From Thiorhodospira sibirica ATCC 700588 (GTDB lineage: Bacteria; Pseudomonadota; Gammaproteobacteria; Ectothiorhodospirales; Ectothiorhodospiraceae): a stretch of 64,000 nt of DNA. The stretch covers positions 1,186,424 to 1,250,423 of the forward strand of contig NZ_MU255056.1 in NCBI RefSeq assembly GCF_000227725.2, read 5' to 3'. A program made the translations under genes and the position numbers. This document shows, one piece after another, positions 13,919-27,314 of the stretch. Numbering within the stretch: the stretch's first letter is position 1; each line of letters opens with the position of its first letter. A model generated the notes under the pieces. The model worked only from the letters and a program-made list of their open reading frames with translations. It did no database searches and had not been told where the DNA came from.

Positions 13919-14756
13919 CGGAGGGACATTGAGTGTGGATGATAGCACGCTGGACAAACCCTACAGCCAGCACATGGCGTTGGTGGGGTATTTCTGGTCA
14001 GGCAAACACCACCGGGTGGTCAAGGGGCTGAACCTGATCACGCTGTATTACAGCGACTCGCAAGGGCGTAGTTTGCCGGTCAACTCTCGGGGGTACGACA
14101 AAACCGACGGCAAGACCAAGAATGATTATTTCCTCGACAGGCTGGCGGAAGTCTTGGCATGGAGGTTGCGCCCTGCTTTGATAACGGGGGATAGCGGGTA
14201 TTCCTGTGCAGGTAACCTCAAGAGGGTGAGAAACCACCCAATGGGGTTCCTGTTCGCGGTGGAAAGCAACCGCCGAGTATCTATTGAAAAGGGTTCATGG
14301 GTACAGGTACAAAAACTGGACATCCCTTCCGATGAGCTGAAGGTCTGGTTACGTGAATTTGGCGAGGTAAAGCTATTTCGGACGCAGTTAAAAGACCAAC
14401 AGCGCCATTATGTGGTTTTCCTGCCGGATACCGATGCCTATGATGACTTCCGGTCAACCCACTTTCAGACCCTGCATGACCAACACTGGCAGATTGAGCA
14501 ATACCACCGCATGATCAAACAGCTCTGCCATATCGAGAAATTCCAGGTGCGCGGTAAGGTGCCGATACGCAATCCTATCTTTGCCGCTTTGTGCAGTTAT
14601 GTCCACCTCCAGCAGATGAAGTTCGTTGACATGATCAGCAATGCTTACCCATGGCAATGCCATTTGTACACCCAGGTAGTCGCCGCTTTCGTCCGCAACT
14701 TCATGCAAGGTAAGCAGCACCTTAACCCACAATTTCAGTCCACCGTCAATGCGTAA
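13917..14756 (+). pseudogene. Transposase, IS4/IS701-like DDE type, N-terminally truncated
   Basis: A 275-residue C-terminal part of a DDE transposase. It has the first catalytic region SVDDSTLDKPYS, SGKHHRVVKGLNLITL, the second D in ALITGDSGYS, and the E-containing HDQHWQIEQYHRMIKQ region. The usual first 100 or more residues are missing. Their place is taken by the IS630-type element, and the sequence left of that element belongs to Uma2, so the 5' part was deleted rather than just interrupted. All visible catalytic acids survive, but the truncated protein is unlikely to transpose. Confidence 0.75.
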
Positions 14757-19700: not shown

Positions 19701-20337
19701 GTAGTGATAAACAGTGGTAAGATGTAGCGGTCATTGAGTCAAAGCGTAAAAAGCCATGCCGTGTCCTTCGTGTCATTCAGAGAAGGTGATTAAAAATGGC
19801 CGTATCCATAACCACACGCCGAAATTCGCGTGCAAGGCGTGCAGCCGACACTGTGTCGAGAATCCCCAGAATCGAATCGGTAGGGAAGCGTGTGATCCCA
19901 TGCGATGCGCTGTGGTCTTTTGTGGGAAATAAGCATCATAAACCCTGGGTTGGTGATCGATCGATCAAGAGATAGGCGAAAGGGTCGGCGTGTGTGTCGG
20001 GGATCGAAGTCGGCAAGGGGCCCAAGGGCTTTGGGAGTCGTTACCTGCGGTGTATCGTCAATGCGCGGTGTGTTACACCGATTTTTGGGAGGCCTATCTG
20101 GGGGTATTGCCTACACAACGCCATCGGGCCGTTGGAAAAGAAACCGGCAAAACCTCTAAAATTGAGCGCTTCAATGCCACATTAAGACAACGTGTATCTC
20201 GCTTCGTCAGAAAAACCCTGTCATTTTCAAAAAAGCTCGAAAACCACATCGGCGCTATCTGGTATTTCGTTCACCATTACAATGAAACCTTGTCTGTCGC
20301 TGCTGATTGACTATTCACTATCTTGTGCAGGACTACC
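19701..20337 (+). mobile_element. Decayed IS1-like element
   Basis: Starts with a zinc-finger InsA-like part from ATG 19756 (MPCPSCHSEKVIKNGR, FACKACSRHC), which is fused by deletion to an InsB-like DDE part. The latter reads LWSFVGNKHHKPWV, then in another frame CYTDFWEAYLGVLP, KIERFNATLRQRVSRFVRK and YFVHHYNETL to a stop at 20310. The D of CYTDFW and the E of KIERFN are seen. At least two frameshifts and an internal deletion leave it dead. Both edges show GGTAGT (19701) and its complement (20332-20337), probably the tips of the inverted repeats. Confidence 0.75.
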
Positions 20338-20574: not shown

Positions 20575-20682
20575 GCGGCATCATCTTGATGCCGCTGCCT
20601 GTAGCGACACCTTCCAGGTGTCGCTTGAAAACCAGCAAACGCAAGATGCGTCCGCCACATGTCAGCATCTTCCAGATGTCAC
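20575..20682. repeat. Cluster of REP-like palindromes
   Basis: Three hairpins stand close together. GCGGCATCA/TGATGCCGC (20575-20595) has a 3-base loop. AGCGACACCT/AGGTGTCGCT (20603-20625) has a perfect 10-bp stem. An imperfect copy built on CATCTTCCAGATG lies at about 20661-20682. The middle hairpin shares its stem core with the two at 24196-24259. They resemble short dispersed intergenic palindromes rather than terminators, since no T runs follow. The remaining bases in 20338-20574 show nothing recognisable. Confidence 0.6.
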
Positions 20683-20728
20683 TGCAAACGAGTGTTGACA
20701 AGCCTGCGCCGGGGTTTTAGAGTGCCTT

Positions 20729-20917
20729 TCAGGAGACTGAAAACTCCCACATAGCGGTTCCCACGCCTGTCAGCCGTGGTTTTTTTGTGCCCGAATACCC
20801 AAGGCGCGCTGTTTGTGCGCGCCTTTTGTCATCTGTTTAGGGTCGGGAGGGGACGAATACAACACCCGCAAGGGAAATCAGTCCGCCGAACTATGTGCGG
20901 TTTTCAGCCTCCTGACC
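20729..20917 (+). ncRNA. C4-type antisense RNA leader (phage immunity RNA)
   Basis: The core 20841-20917 is closed by GGTCGGGAGG/CCTCCTGACC (10 bp, one G-U) and contains CACCCGCAAGGG and a CCGCC...GCGG stem, the layout I recall for C4 antisense RNAs of P1/P7-type phages. The strand 20891-20915 is complementary, with few mismatches, to 20729-20754 upstream. It is also complementary over about 14 of 18 bases to 20945-20962, just before the ATG of the Rha-type gene. This gives the a/a' pairing expected of C4, which blocks translation of a downstream anti-repressor. A strong hairpin (GGCGCGC/GCGCGCC plus TTTT, about 20802-20826) lies inside the leader. The Rfam match has not been run. Confidence 0.6.
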
Positions 20918-20964
20918 GCCTTCGCATTGAAGGCGTGTCAACCTACTGAAAAGGTCACATAGTC

Positions 20965-21511
20965 ATGTCCATATATTCTGCCTGTGCGCCATTGCACACC
21001 TTAAGCATGTCCTCGCGAGAAATTGCCACACTCACCGATAAACGTCATGCAGATGTTATGCGTGATATCCGGGTGATGCTGGAGCAGCTCCCCAAATTTG
21101 GGTTATCAAGAAATTCAAGGCATTAGCCCTGAGTATTGCCCACAGACCAAACGCCTTGCCGGGTATCATCTCGACCGCCGTCATACGGAAATTCTTATCA
21201 CCGGCTACGACATCAAACGCCGGGCGGCGGTGATTGATCGCTGGTACGAACTGGAAAGCGGCCAGGCCCAGCCGCGTTATGCCACCCCGCCAGACCCCGA
21301 CCCGCTGCACCGCCCTGACTTCATCCGCGCTTACATCCGCCTCACCGCCTTAAACCTCTGTCTGGATCATCTCTCGCTTAACGACACCACCAAGCGACAA
21401 CTGATTGAACAAGCCGTGCGCAGTCTGGGCGAAGATGCCGCTTTGGCGGCGGATTGGTGTGTATTTGCGCTAAGTCTGGGAGCGCTCCCAGGGGTTGCCG
21501 CCAGCTTTTAA
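20965..21511 (+). pseudogene. Rha-family phage regulatory protein, frameshifted
   Basis: The first frame from ATG 20965 encodes MSSREIATLTDKRHADVMRDI and RVMLEQLPKFG, the N-terminal Rha/KilA-N-like DNA-binding domain of phage regulators. A +1 shift near 21090-21100 moves to the frame that reads GYQEIQGISPEYCPQTKR, YHLDRRHTEILITGYDIKRRA and VIDRWYELE, the second half of the same domain. After that come about 85 residues of unrecognised C-terminal part ending at 21511. In phages such genes act as anti-repressors or regulators under C4-type RNA control, which fits the leader just upstream. A single-base indel explains the break. Confidence 0.75.
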
Positions 21512-21638: not shown

Positions 21639-21815
21639 GTGGTCGCACAAAGCCAGACATGGCTTGAATCCGTTGATGAACCGCAGCAATTGGAGCAGCT
21701 GTTTGAGCATATAATCGACCGTCCTGACGGTGAAGCCTGGCTGCACGGTTTAAAAATTATCGTCGATGAGCGCACCGCCTGCGGCCTAAATCCTAAACCA
21801 GAGAGCGAACAATGA
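21639..21815 (+). CDS. Small ORF coupled to the next gene, function unknown
   Basis: A 58-codon frame from GTG 21639 with acidic content (WLESVDEPQQLEQLFEHI, WLHGLKIIVDERT). Its TGA overlaps the ATG of the large exported protein in ATGA, the usual sign of translational coupling. No good ribosome-binding site and no family are recognised. It may instead be the 3' remnant of a longer gene, as the open frame extends upstream only to a TGA near 21590. Treat as tentative. Confidence 0.35.
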   Translation: MVAQSQTWLESVDEPQQLEQLFEHIIDRPDGEAWLHGLKIIVDERTACGLNPKPESEQ

Positions 21816-24193
21816 TCAAAGACATCCCCCATTATCTGCGCTATGCAGTGCTTGGTGTACTGCTTTTAGCCGTATGGAATAGCCCGCTGTGGGCCCGCGA
21901 TGATCTGGGTACCCTGGCGGTGATTGAAGTCAATGGCGCGCTGGAATATGCCCAGGAGCCGGTTGAATTATTGCGTTTGCTGGCGGAGGGGCCGTTGACG
22001 CTACGCGCCTTGCGGGCCTTTGACCGCCTGCCCGATGCCGCCAATACGCTGGCTCTGGAGCTGCGCCGCCAGGGTATTGATCTGTTCAGCGCTGACCGCG
22101 CAGCCTTGCAGGATTATCTGCAGCGTATTGAAGCAGGTACGCTTGCAGCACAGCCAGAAAGCATGGAGTCCCTGCTGTTGCATCTTGAGACGTATGCCTA
22201 TCTTGATTGGCATCCCTTGACGCCCGGTCAGCAGTTGGAGCCAGAGTCATTGGCCTGGGTGCGCGGGAGCGGTGAGGCGATCTTACGCGCACAGGCCGAT
22301 GAGACGCTGTGGCAGATGTCGCTAACCGGTGATGTGCAGGCTCTGGATGTGGGCAATATGCTGGTTGCTCTGACCAAGCCTGAGACACACGCCGCTGCGC
22401 CTTTCGCTGAATCTGAGTCCATGACCGAGACACCGACAGCGGATGATTCTGCCGCTGAAATCCCAGCGCTTGCCGCATTGTCTGCGTCTGCACAGGCTTT
22501 GCATGAAGGCTTTTTAGGCTGGCTTGCCGGGGATGAGAGTTTCCGCGTTGTTGCTACGGAGCTGGCCGTGGAGGAGGCCCCCGATGGGACGCTGAACTGG
22601 CACAGCCCTCATGCCCTCCTGCATATAAGCCCGGACGGTGAAGACGGCGAATCGTTCAGTCTGGATCTGGGGGAAGTGACGGCGACCCTAAGACCGCAAG
22701 ACGATGGCGCTTATTCCTTGGCGATTGATCTGTCACCGACGCAGCACCTGCTGGATGAAGACGGCGAGGTGATGGCGACGCTGCACAGTCAGGAGCGCGC
22801 CCTGCACGGGCTGTGGGATGCTGGCACGCAGAGCTTACCCGCGCTGGATGTTGTATTCACGGGGCTGGACGTGGTGGCCGGGGCATCAGCGCCCGATACA
22901 CAGACTCCATCGGGTAGCTATGCGCCGACACGGCCACATGATTTCTATCGGGCGCATATCGAGCAATTGCGTCTGGCAAGTCAGACGACTCTCGATGATC
23001 AGGGGCATCAGGCTGGCACCGGGACGCTAGATCTGGAGGGGGTACAGATGTTTTCGCTGTCCGGGCATGAGGTGGTCAAGCTGGCAAATATTAGCCTGCA
23101 GACCCAGCATGATGCACTGGATGAGCAGGTATTCACGGGATTACTGAATGAGCTGACCGAGCAGGCTGTTTCGCTGGATCCGCTGGCCTGGATGCAAAAG
23201 CTGCTGGAAGCCAGTGGTTTGCTGTCCTTCAGTCTGGCGCTGGAGAAACTGGCCGTGCAAGAGCCTGATGGCGAGGACTATATTCGGCTTGATGGCTTTC
23301 TGGCCAAGTTGCGTTTGACGCCTTCCGATAATGCCGACCGCCAGCGTGATCTCAGTGTGCAGTACCGTGCTGACGGTCTGGAGTTTCTGGTCGACGAGAT
23401 GACCGGGGCACTGGCATCGCTTGACTGGAAAATGCAGCTGCAGCAGCTGGCACCGCTGGCCTGGGTACAGTTGTTTAGTGAGGGGCCAGGCGCCGATCCG
23501 GGCACCTTTGCGCAATCTCTGCTGCGTCAGCTCACGCTGTCCAGTCAGTTGCAGGGTTTGAGTCTGCGCCAGCCGGGAGAGAGCGCCGAAACGCTTACGC
23601 AGATGGAGCTACAGTTTTCATTGAATGCACTGGATACGCAAACGCCCAGCGCCGAACTGCAATATCTACAGCACGGTACGCTGAGCATGGATGAAAATCT
23701 GCCCGCTGAACTCAATCCGCATACCGTGGCCTTTGATATCGCCTTGCAGCGCCTGCCGTTGAGCGCTCTGCTCACTCAAGCCATGTCAGACGGGATGCTA
23801 AACCCGGAATTTGCCCTGCAAAGCCTGCTGGCACATGCCACGCAATTAGACATCCGCGAATGGCGCTGGGAGTTTCCATTAAGCACCCTGCTCATGCAGG
23901 CTAACGCACAAGCCCAGGCGGCGGCCGCAGATGTCGCGCCGCACTTGCAGGCCGAGGCGCGCATTGATCTGCATGATCTGGAACGCATGGGGCAATGGGC
24001 GGCAGGCTTTGAGGCCGATCCCATGCTGGCCGAGCAGCTGCGGGCAATGATCGCCATGCTGGGAATCATTGGGGAGAAAAAAACCGATGCGGATGGCAAA
24101 CTTTACCATCACTATCACATCGAGGCGGACAGCCTGGGGCAGATGAAGCTTAATGGCAATGACATGAGCGCCTTGATGTCGATGATGCCCTAA
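21812..24193 (+). CDS. Large exported protein of unknown function
   Basis: A 793-residue protein with a signal peptide (YAVLGVLLLAVWNSPLWA, cleavage likely before RDDLG) and no later membrane segment. The N-terminal part is leucine- and alanine-rich and helical. The middle is acidic with beta-strand spacing (HALLHISPDGEDGESFSLDL). The C-terminus ends KLYHHYHIEADSLGQMKLNG followed by DMSALMSMMP. The last part recalls DUF945/YdgA-like periplasmic proteins, but I am not certain. It is followed at once by a terminator hairpin, so it ends a transcript. Its likely location is the periplasm; the role is unknown. Confidence 0.7.
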   Translation: MIKDIPHYLRYAVLGVLLLAVWNSPLWARDDLGTLAVIEVNGALEYAQEPVELLRLLAEGPLTLRALRAFDRLPDAANTLALELRRQGIDLFSADRAALQDYLQRIEAGTLAAQPESMESLLLHLETYAYLDWHPLTPGQQLEPESLAWVRGSGEAILRAQADETLWQMSLTGDVQALDVGNMLVALTKPETHAAAPFAESESMTETPTADDSAAEIPALAALSASAQALHEGFLGWLAGDESFRVVATELAVEEAPDGTLNWHSPHALLHISPDGEDGESFSLDLGEVTATLRPQDDGAYSLAIDLSPTQHLLDEDGEVMATLHSQERALHGLWDAGTQSLPALDVVFTGLDVVAGASAPDTQTPSGSYAPTRPHDFYRAHIEQLRLASQTTLDDQGHQAGTGTLDLEGVQMFSLSGHEVVKLANISLQTQHDALDEQVFTGLLNELTEQAVSLDPLAWMQKLLEASGLLSFSLALEKLAVQEPDGEDYIRLDGFLAKLRLTPSDNADRQRDLSVQYRADGLEFLVDEMTGALASLDWKMQLQQLAPLAWVQLFSEGPGADPGTFAQSLLRQLTLSSQLQGLSLRQPGESAETLTQMELQFSLNALDTQTPSAELQYLQHGTLSMDENLPAELNPHTVAFDIALQRLPLSALLTQAMSDGMLNPEFALQSLLAHATQLDIREWRWEFPLSTLLMQANAQAQAAAADVAPHLQAEARIDLHDLERMGQWAAGFEADPMLAEQLRAMIAMLGIIGEKKTDADGKLYHHYHIEADSLGQMKLNGNDMSALMSMMP

Positions 24194-26068: not shown

Positions 26069-27314
26069 CATCCTCCCCGCGCCTTTTGGACGGGGATTCC
26101 TACGGCGCTCAGGCGGCAATCGCCTGAGTCGCTTCGGTGGGTTCCTGCTGCTGGCGGCATTACCGCACCGCTCACTTCACAGGCGAACCGGGCGTGTCCC
26201 GCCCTTAGAACATTGATCGCGCCGACCACATCGGCGTTTTCCTCAAAGCCACACTCGACGCATAGAAACTGCGCCTGCGTCTGCCGGTTGTCCGCAGAGA
26301 CGTGGCCGCAGCACGGGCATGTCTGACTGGTGTACTGCGGCGGCACGGCGACGAGCCAGCCGCCGTTCCACGCCAGCTTGTATCCAGTTGGCGGCGGAAC
26401 TCGAACCAGCCCTGATCGAGGATGCTCTTGTTCAGTCCGGATTTGGCCCAAACGTTTCTTCCCGGCTTTTCGGTACTGCCTGCCGCCGACCTGGACATGT
26501 TCCGTACCTGCAAGTCCTCGATACATACCATCGCGTGGTTTTTGCTGATCGTGGTCGTGGCCTTGTGCAGATAGTCGCGGCGGGCGTTGGCGATGCGCGT
26601 GTGAATACGCTGGACGCGGGCTTTCGCCTTCTTCCAGTTGCTACTGAATTTGACCTTACGGCTCATGCGGCGCTGATAGCGTGCCAGCCGATGCTGATGT
26701 TTCTTGAAGCTGTTGAGCGGCTTGAAGACCGTGCCATCCGAAAGCGTGGCAAAGCGGGCAATGCCCATATCGATCCCAATGGCGCCACCATGGGGAACCG
26801 GCGGCTCGACTTCGCGCTCGGTCTGGATCGACACGAACCACTTGCCGCCTGTCTGGCTGACGGTCGCGTTTTTGATTTCGCCCAACACGTCACGGCTGTT
26901 GCGATAGCGCAGCCAGCCGAGTTTCGGCAGGAAGATGCGGCTATTGCCTTGGTCGAGCTTGATGCCCTGTGGGTAGCGGAAGCGGTCTGATACGCCTTTT
27001 TTCTTGAAGCGCGGGAAGTCGGCACGCTTTTCGAAGAAGTTTTGGTAGGCGCGTTCGAGATTCTTGAGCGCCTGCTGCAAGGCTTGGCTGGGCGTTTCGT
27101 TCAGCCAGCACGTTTGCGGTTGCGCCTTCCACTCGGTGAGCGCCTTGCAGAGTGCCGCGTAGCCGAGCTTCTTTTCTCCCGCCTCGCGTCGATCCTGTTG
27201 CAACGCCAGCGCCTTGTTGTAGACGAACCGGCACGAGCCAGCAAATCGACGCATGAGGCGCCGTTGCTTGCCGTTGGGCTTTAGCGCAAATCGGTAGGCT
27301 TGAAGACGTTGCAT
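26069..27314 (-). pseudogene. TnpB/InsQ RNA-guided nuclease gene with one-base frameshift
   Basis: From ATG 27314 the frame encodes MQRLQAYRFALKPNGKQRR, the RuvC-I region GIDMGIARFATLSDG, a basic helical region, and RuvC-II CIEDLQVRNMSR. Near 26384-26386 one G is missing, and the frame moves to YKLAWNGGWLVAVPPQYTSQ. The zinc ribbon CPCCGH...CVECG and RuvC-III ADVVGAINVLRAGH follow, and then the frame has no stop before the element end. All three catalytic acids and the zinc cysteines survive. TnpB cuts DNA guided by an RNA read from this end of the element, so the guide region would be about 26066-26200. Confidence 0.85.

Follow-up and report, generated by a model that had tools for sequence, protein, structure and literature searches.

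The C4 antisense RNA of phages P1 and P7 (Rfam RF01695) and its leader (c4-a1b1, RF03163) are grouped in Rfam clan CL00128, which does not include sRNA-Xcc1. In the annotated record of phage P1, the elements follow one another as a1/b1/c4/a2/b2, a hairpin with a T-rich run lies between b1 and C4, and the icd gene precedes ant, the whole unit being located within the phage. Two further systems, namely, IsrK/STnc1160-orf45-anrP of Gifsy-1 (RF01394) and the CI RNA of P4 with seqA and seqC, share with the arrangement proposed for the locus examined here a short terminated leader, a read-through mRNA, a processed RNA complementary to both sides and an antirepressor gene (PMC4825925), but differ from it in sequence and in acting inside an active prophage or satellite. 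Experiments on Gifsy-1 revealed that the short terminated leader activates an inactive read-through mRNA, the processed RNA lying downstream, and the authors compared this system with P4, where termination results from pairing of the CI RNA with seqA and seqC (PMC4825925).

The sRNA-Xcc1 family (RF02221) was found in Xanthomonas campestris (PMC2996969). The most widespread integron cassette of Xanthomonas carries it 5' of symE (PMC12444791). In Xylella, its members are treated as vesicle-borne RNAs, five clustered copies of a genomic island being discussed as RNAs that would interfere in recipient cells (PMC12189769). In the literature examined, we found no mention of a leader or ribosome-binding site (RBS) code for sRNA-Xcc1; among the papers searched, none linked it with C4 and antirepressors, and the novelty of this link is not certain. 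Acinetobacter baumannii likewise possesses numerous C4-type RNAs within a single genome, the Group 1 sRNAs, whose loops vary. The authors of that study propose foreign or host targets, and the available text of that paper (PMC5320573) contains no report that we could find of pairing with their own leader or gene.

Here, we describe a locus within a window of 64,000 nucleotides of Thiorhodospira sibirica, the window being the whole stretch of DNA that was analysed. We consider it likely that this locus is a self-regulating cassette of the C4 type, that is, a free-standing and self-specific antisense switch comparable to C4, IsrK and P4 CI.

An sRNA-Xcc1 RNA and its complementary sites 5' of a Rha gene

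The initial annotation had recognised an RNA core at 20841-20917, with complementary sites at 20729-20754 and 20945-20962, in a C4-like arrangement 5' of a Rha gene. The core and both sites are present, and the layout matches that of phage P1. The family assignment is another one, since positions 20841-20925 (forward strand) represent a full-length match to RF02221 (model positions 1-87, 68.4 bits against a gathering threshold of 53, E=2.8e-10 for the window), which is the sole Rfam gathering match within the 64 kb. The C4 model RF01695, proposed as a check on the annotation, gave no match in 20650-21050 even at E<=10. Its leader model RF03163, which matches phage P1, had none in the window at gathering, nor in 20650-21050 at E<=10. 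The features of the locus are listed below, with element names taken from the annotated phage P1 record (a' for the 3' element, b' for that of the P3 loop).

20695 to 20723, forward strand: sigma-70-like promoter TTGACA-17-TAGAGT (consensus scan with 10 of 12 matches, for which chance predicts about one occurrence; identical in the paralogue X2)
20732 to 20747, forward strand: leader hairpin GGAG...CTCC, which could expose a1 in its loop (from sequence)
20737 to 20744, forward strand: a1, CTGAAAAC, complementary to a' (sequence, duplex energy; phage P1 nomenclature)
20748 to 20754, forward strand: b1, CACATAG, complementary to b' (sequence, duplex energy)
20760 to 20786, forward strand: terminator-like hairpin CCACGCC-TGTCA-GCCGTGG with a run of seven T behind it
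20804 to 20827, forward strand: second terminator-like hairpin directly 5' of the RNA (frequency about that expected by chance in shuffles)
20841 to 20925, forward strand: sRNA-Xcc1 (RF02221) antisense RNA, stem P1 at 20841-20917 (covariance model; fold z = -2.0)
20891 to 20897, forward strand: b', CTATGTG, P3 loop region (sequence, duplex energy)
20900 to 20907, forward strand: a', GTTTTCAG, between P3 and the 3' arm of stem P1 (sequence, duplex energy)
20946 to 20952, forward strand: a2, CTGAAAA, overlapping the Shine-Dalgarno AAAGG at 20950-20954 (from sequence)
20956 to 20962, forward strand: b2, CACATAG, two bases 5' of the ATG at 20965 (from sequence)
20965 to 21126, forward strand: Rha N-terminal frame, 53 aa, ended by a frameshift (PF09669)
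21098 to 21511, forward strand: Rha resumed in a different frame (homology with the intact paralogues extends to about 21444)

Read from the sequence, the cassette order is a putative promoter, the a1/b1 leader, a predicted terminator, an antisense RNA of the sRNA-Xcc1 family, a2/b2 at the RBS and a phage-type regulator gene. The succession of a1/b1, hairpin with its T-run, RNA, a2/b2 and gene is that of phage P1, as are the location of b' in the P3 loop and of a' 3' of P3, the GG start and the antirepressor-type cargo. In contrast, the core sequence, with a conserved AATACAA.ACCCG.AAGGG.AAT, differs from that of C4 and gives no C4 model match, and the window unit is free-standing and multi-copy. 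Fold, covariation and comparison with phage P1 place P2 and P3 inside stem P1, with b' in the P3 loop and a' 3' of P3. The GGT at the RNA 5' end (20841) corresponds to the motif at which C4 RNAs are reported to be cleaved by RNase P (PMC5320573). The leader hairpin is kept in other copies with different stems (GGGA/TCCC, AGAG/CTCT); folding of the leader alone gives preference to another hairpin (MFE). The IsrK model yielded weak, below-threshold matches to the leaders of phage P1 and of two host C4 copies.

In exact letters, CTATGTG pairs with CACATAG at two sites (20748-20754 and 20956-20962), and so does GTTTTCAG with CTGAAAA(C) (20737-20744 and 20946-20952). The duplex between RNA strand 20885-20918 and leader 20723-20800 (-36.5 kcal/mol) is far beyond chance, dinucleotide shuffles having a mean of -18.6 (sd 3.2) and none out of 2000 reaching it. 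By energy alone, the duplex with the RBS region is modest (-22.4, shuffle mean -16.7, sd 3.0). It is reached by 94 of 2000 shuffles, a figure that would suit an explanation by chance complementarity in GC-rich sequence; the leader duplex and the family-wide tests presented below speak against this explanation, which is refuted at the family level and to which we attribute a negligible probability.

Self-specific code across the family

What the sequences show directly is the anatomy of the cassette, the cognate specificity of its complementarity and the co-variation of its elements. A strict core pattern was found in at least 117 genome and at least 120 viral stretches, from many genera and phages, and once duplicates had been removed, the matches listed comprised 156 loci distinct in loop and a', with 140 loops among them. 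For these 156 listed loci, the loop matches its own leader over 6.8 nt on average, and over at least 7 nt in 69% of cases versus 2.8% for non-cognate leaders (z=32). The match of the loop to its own RBS attains at least 7 nt in 54% versus 1.9% (z=27.5). The a' element displays the same trend towards leader and RBS, with a weaker signal because its sequence is less variable. Among 2000 permutations, which leave kinship between loci in place, none attained any of the four observed match means (loop and a', matches listed); the non-cognate pairs were taken from different loops only.

The arms of stem P1 also co-vary (9.5 for own versus 6.8 for swapped pairs, z=26.7); they were compared in this manner since MAFFT/RNAalifold on 46 cores put the arms out of register. 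In P3, four of five pairs exhibit changes on both sides. Compensatory changes in homologues, left by the initial annotation as a point to be checked, are thus abundant in the 156 guides of the matches listed, in the P1 arms and in P3. At a finer scale, the window copy and X2 have promoter, leader flanks and frameshift region in common but diverge in concert at all six pairing elements (a1, b1, a', b', a2, b2), with complementarity kept. X1 combines a of one with b of the other and again matches its RBS, with one G-U pair (leader masked). Within genomes, six of six Rhodanobacter copies match their own leader over at least 6 nt, with two cross-matches of at least 7 nt in 30, and the corresponding figures for Xanthomonas hortorum are 11 of 13 copies and 6 of 156. 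In the host genome, 11 of 240 cross-pairs attain 7 nt; same-loop copies aside, these are located by eye on the promoter-proximal GAGTAGC and GCCGTTA, outside the a1/b1 place.

These data bear on the possibility that the RNA acts in trans on unlinked genes, as proposed for sRNA-Xcc1 in Xanthomonas, the neighbouring complementarity being incidental. X. campestris sRNA-Xcc1 resembles the window RNA by its full-length covariance-model match and its multi-copy nature, but is described as trans-acting, under HrpG/HrpX according to a title cited in PMC12444791, with many predicted targets (PMC2996969), and most Xanthomonadaceae copies lack an RBS match. However, the guides are variable and fit the leader and RBS of their own locus rather than those of others, and the published target lists are predictions. 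A purely trans-acting function appears improbable, additional trans targets being possible.

With regard to cargo, 106 loci among the matches listed match their RBS by the loop over at least 6 nt, and their genes are mostly of antirepressor type. For 81 of these RBS-matching loci (matches listed), they comprise Bro-N (29), Rha (11), P22_AR_C (9), AntA (8), KilA-N (8), ORF6N (7) and SymE (2). Another 41 of the 156 listed loci, mainly from Xanthomonadaceae, match the leader only, and RBS blocking therefore cannot be the whole mechanism. Among 31 of the latter that were scanned (matches listed), 23 carry XAC0095-family proteins, and SymE was seen in one checked case. Copy numbers range from 3 to 13 in five Xanthomonas genomes and from 1 to 6 in three Rhodanobacter-like genomes. 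In the C4-family copies of the host, the P3 loop matches the leader only, and the RBS match lies by eye in a' and the P1 arm. Whether sRNA-Xcc1 RNAs in general represent free-standing, self-specific antisense switches, most chromosomal copies having a private code in leader, RNA and often RBS, and one branch, its RBS target lost, acting through the leader only with non-antirepressor cargo (XAC0095-family, SymE), seems to us an evenly balanced proposition.

Proposed switch and predicted leader terminator

We infer the function of the RNA, together with transcription, processing, repression and the direction of the leader effect, as follows. Read-through past the terminator would give a transcript carrying the RNA, which would be excised, probably by RNase P by analogy with C4. 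Through b' in its P3 loop and through a', the RNA would then pair with the leader and RBS of its own transcript and keep the gene off, while the short terminated leader could titrate the RNA, as IsrK in Gifsy-1, so that the balance between leader and RNA would set the switch. The private code of most copies would result in little silencing between paralogues. The cassette is read in this sense, with the RNA as the off signal through RBS and leader and the free leader as its counter, because of the IsrK experiments, the comparison with P4 CI RNA and the weak IsrK-model matches.

Among the 131 listed loci with a leader match, 106 have a hairpin and T-run between b1 and the RNA, with the T-run 27-30 nt 3' of b1, compared with 1.8 in shuffles. 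In folding calculations, occupation of a1/b1 raises terminator probability from 0.44 to 0.68. This spacing and this increase, together with a leader match that is commoner than the RBS match and is the sole match in most Xanthomonadaceae copies, would fit an RNA that is mainly transcriptional, binding nascent a1/b1 and promoting termination like P4 CI RNA, with RBS blocking secondary or absent. Nevertheless, any blocking would raise the probability, and native leaders behave as shuffled ones. We view this mode of action as a tentative possibility, deserving serious attention but somewhat doubtful. A simple antiterminator model found no support, since native and shuffled leaders give equal terminator probability on folding. 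Of the 131 leaders (matches listed), 44 also carry a CCGAYA motif in the region of the terminator hairpin, versus one in shuffles.

The self-specific antisense switch proposed here would provide a specific cis mechanism for a family whose members have been described as virulence sRNAs acting in trans, and would link sRNA-Xcc1 with the C4, IsrK and P4 CI systems. It would also suggest another interpretation of the Xanthomonas and Xylella copies, and the five copies of the Xylella genomic island may represent C4-type switches. Many near-orthogonal copies of the unit are present in a chromosome where phage-packaging genes were not detected, and the cassettes would constitute a naturally occurring collection of RNA switches whose codes are separate.

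Cassettes of the host genome and state of the window copy

The survey of the host genome revealed eight RF02221 places and 11 RF01695 matches (10 above cut-off), with no overlap between the two, amounting to about 18 RNA-plus-gene units with about 15 different keys counted by loop sequence. The genes 3' of these RNAs code for Rha, AntA with ORF6N, AntA, KilA-N and Bro-N proteins. All eight Bro-N genes stand behind an RNA, as do five of the seven Rha matches, a sixth being behind an apparent 3' remnant of one: the Rha gene at 245261 of the contig labelled C4 is preceded by what appears to be an sRNA-Xcc1 RNA reduced to its 3' half. One RF02221 copy (X8) lacks the 5' arm, which is replaced by a GCATCATCTTGATGC-type repeat also found near window position 20580, the gene behind it being intact; another (X5) has no long reading frame behind the RNA. 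Homology among the copies (Blast) is confined to leader, RNA and gene, over about 0.6-1.25 kb, with unrelated flanks that, judged by sequence, resemble housekeeping genes (his, gcv and others). A PHROGs tally of the flanks is weak evidence by itself because it mostly returned unnamed families. RF02221 is present in two of 58 related genomes, the host's own included, and its distribution is therefore patchy. Plasmids and phages compared with the window element by BLAST gave short core matches only.

The location outside any prophage, as initially annotated, is borne out by window flanks coding for GcvPHT, an FrhB-like protein and transposases (Pfam) and by the absence of four portal/terminase families (Portal, TerL_ATPase, Terminase_6N and GpA_ATPase) from the whole host genome, families that several control genomes possess. 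Likewise, two photosynthetic reaction-centre genes (PF00124) agree with the description of the host as a phototroph. The transposon-related sequences around the locus comprise an IS1-type transposase fragment (19990-20307), a DDE transposase (13929-14753) and IS605 OrfB (26208-27311), and directly 3' of the locus, 21812-24190 codes for a 793-aa protein without Pfam match.

The window gene is indeed a Rha gene with one frameshift (PF09669, 33.6 bits for the N-terminal frame against a cut-off of 29.9, and 50.3 with X over the frameshift). Since homology to the intact paralogues stops at about 21444, its C-terminal domain is also lost; in this copy, the RNA part is intact and the gene broken. The frameshift is also present in X2, whereas X1 and X8 are intact. 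It is the same in the window copy (20965-21126) and X2 although the rest differs by about 8%, for which gene conversion or recoding are possible explanations.

Frameshift, truncation and the nearby IS1-like fragment and other transposases would be expected if the window unit were a dead phage remnant and its RNA a passive leftover. However, all pairing elements are intact and differ from X2 in concert, and most host cassettes carry intact genes under purifying selection, with dN/dS values of 0.09-0.58 between intact paralogous genes. The suggestion of a relic in the initial annotation fits the window gene, but the unit is one of about 18 cassettes with mostly intact genes, and it does not fit the family; for the window unit with its RNA, we deem a passive remnant rather unlikely.

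Two further observations concern the host proteins and copies. A near-identical C-terminal domain (RHSVQVVNRALVRLGWLQDIRRETPRGLKRVKQLVGEGLCYGRN...), without Pfam model match, is common to Rha and Bro-N proteins whose N-terminal domains differ. The C4-family copies C9 and C10 share 99% identity over 923 bases, and the Rha gene of C10 is broken.
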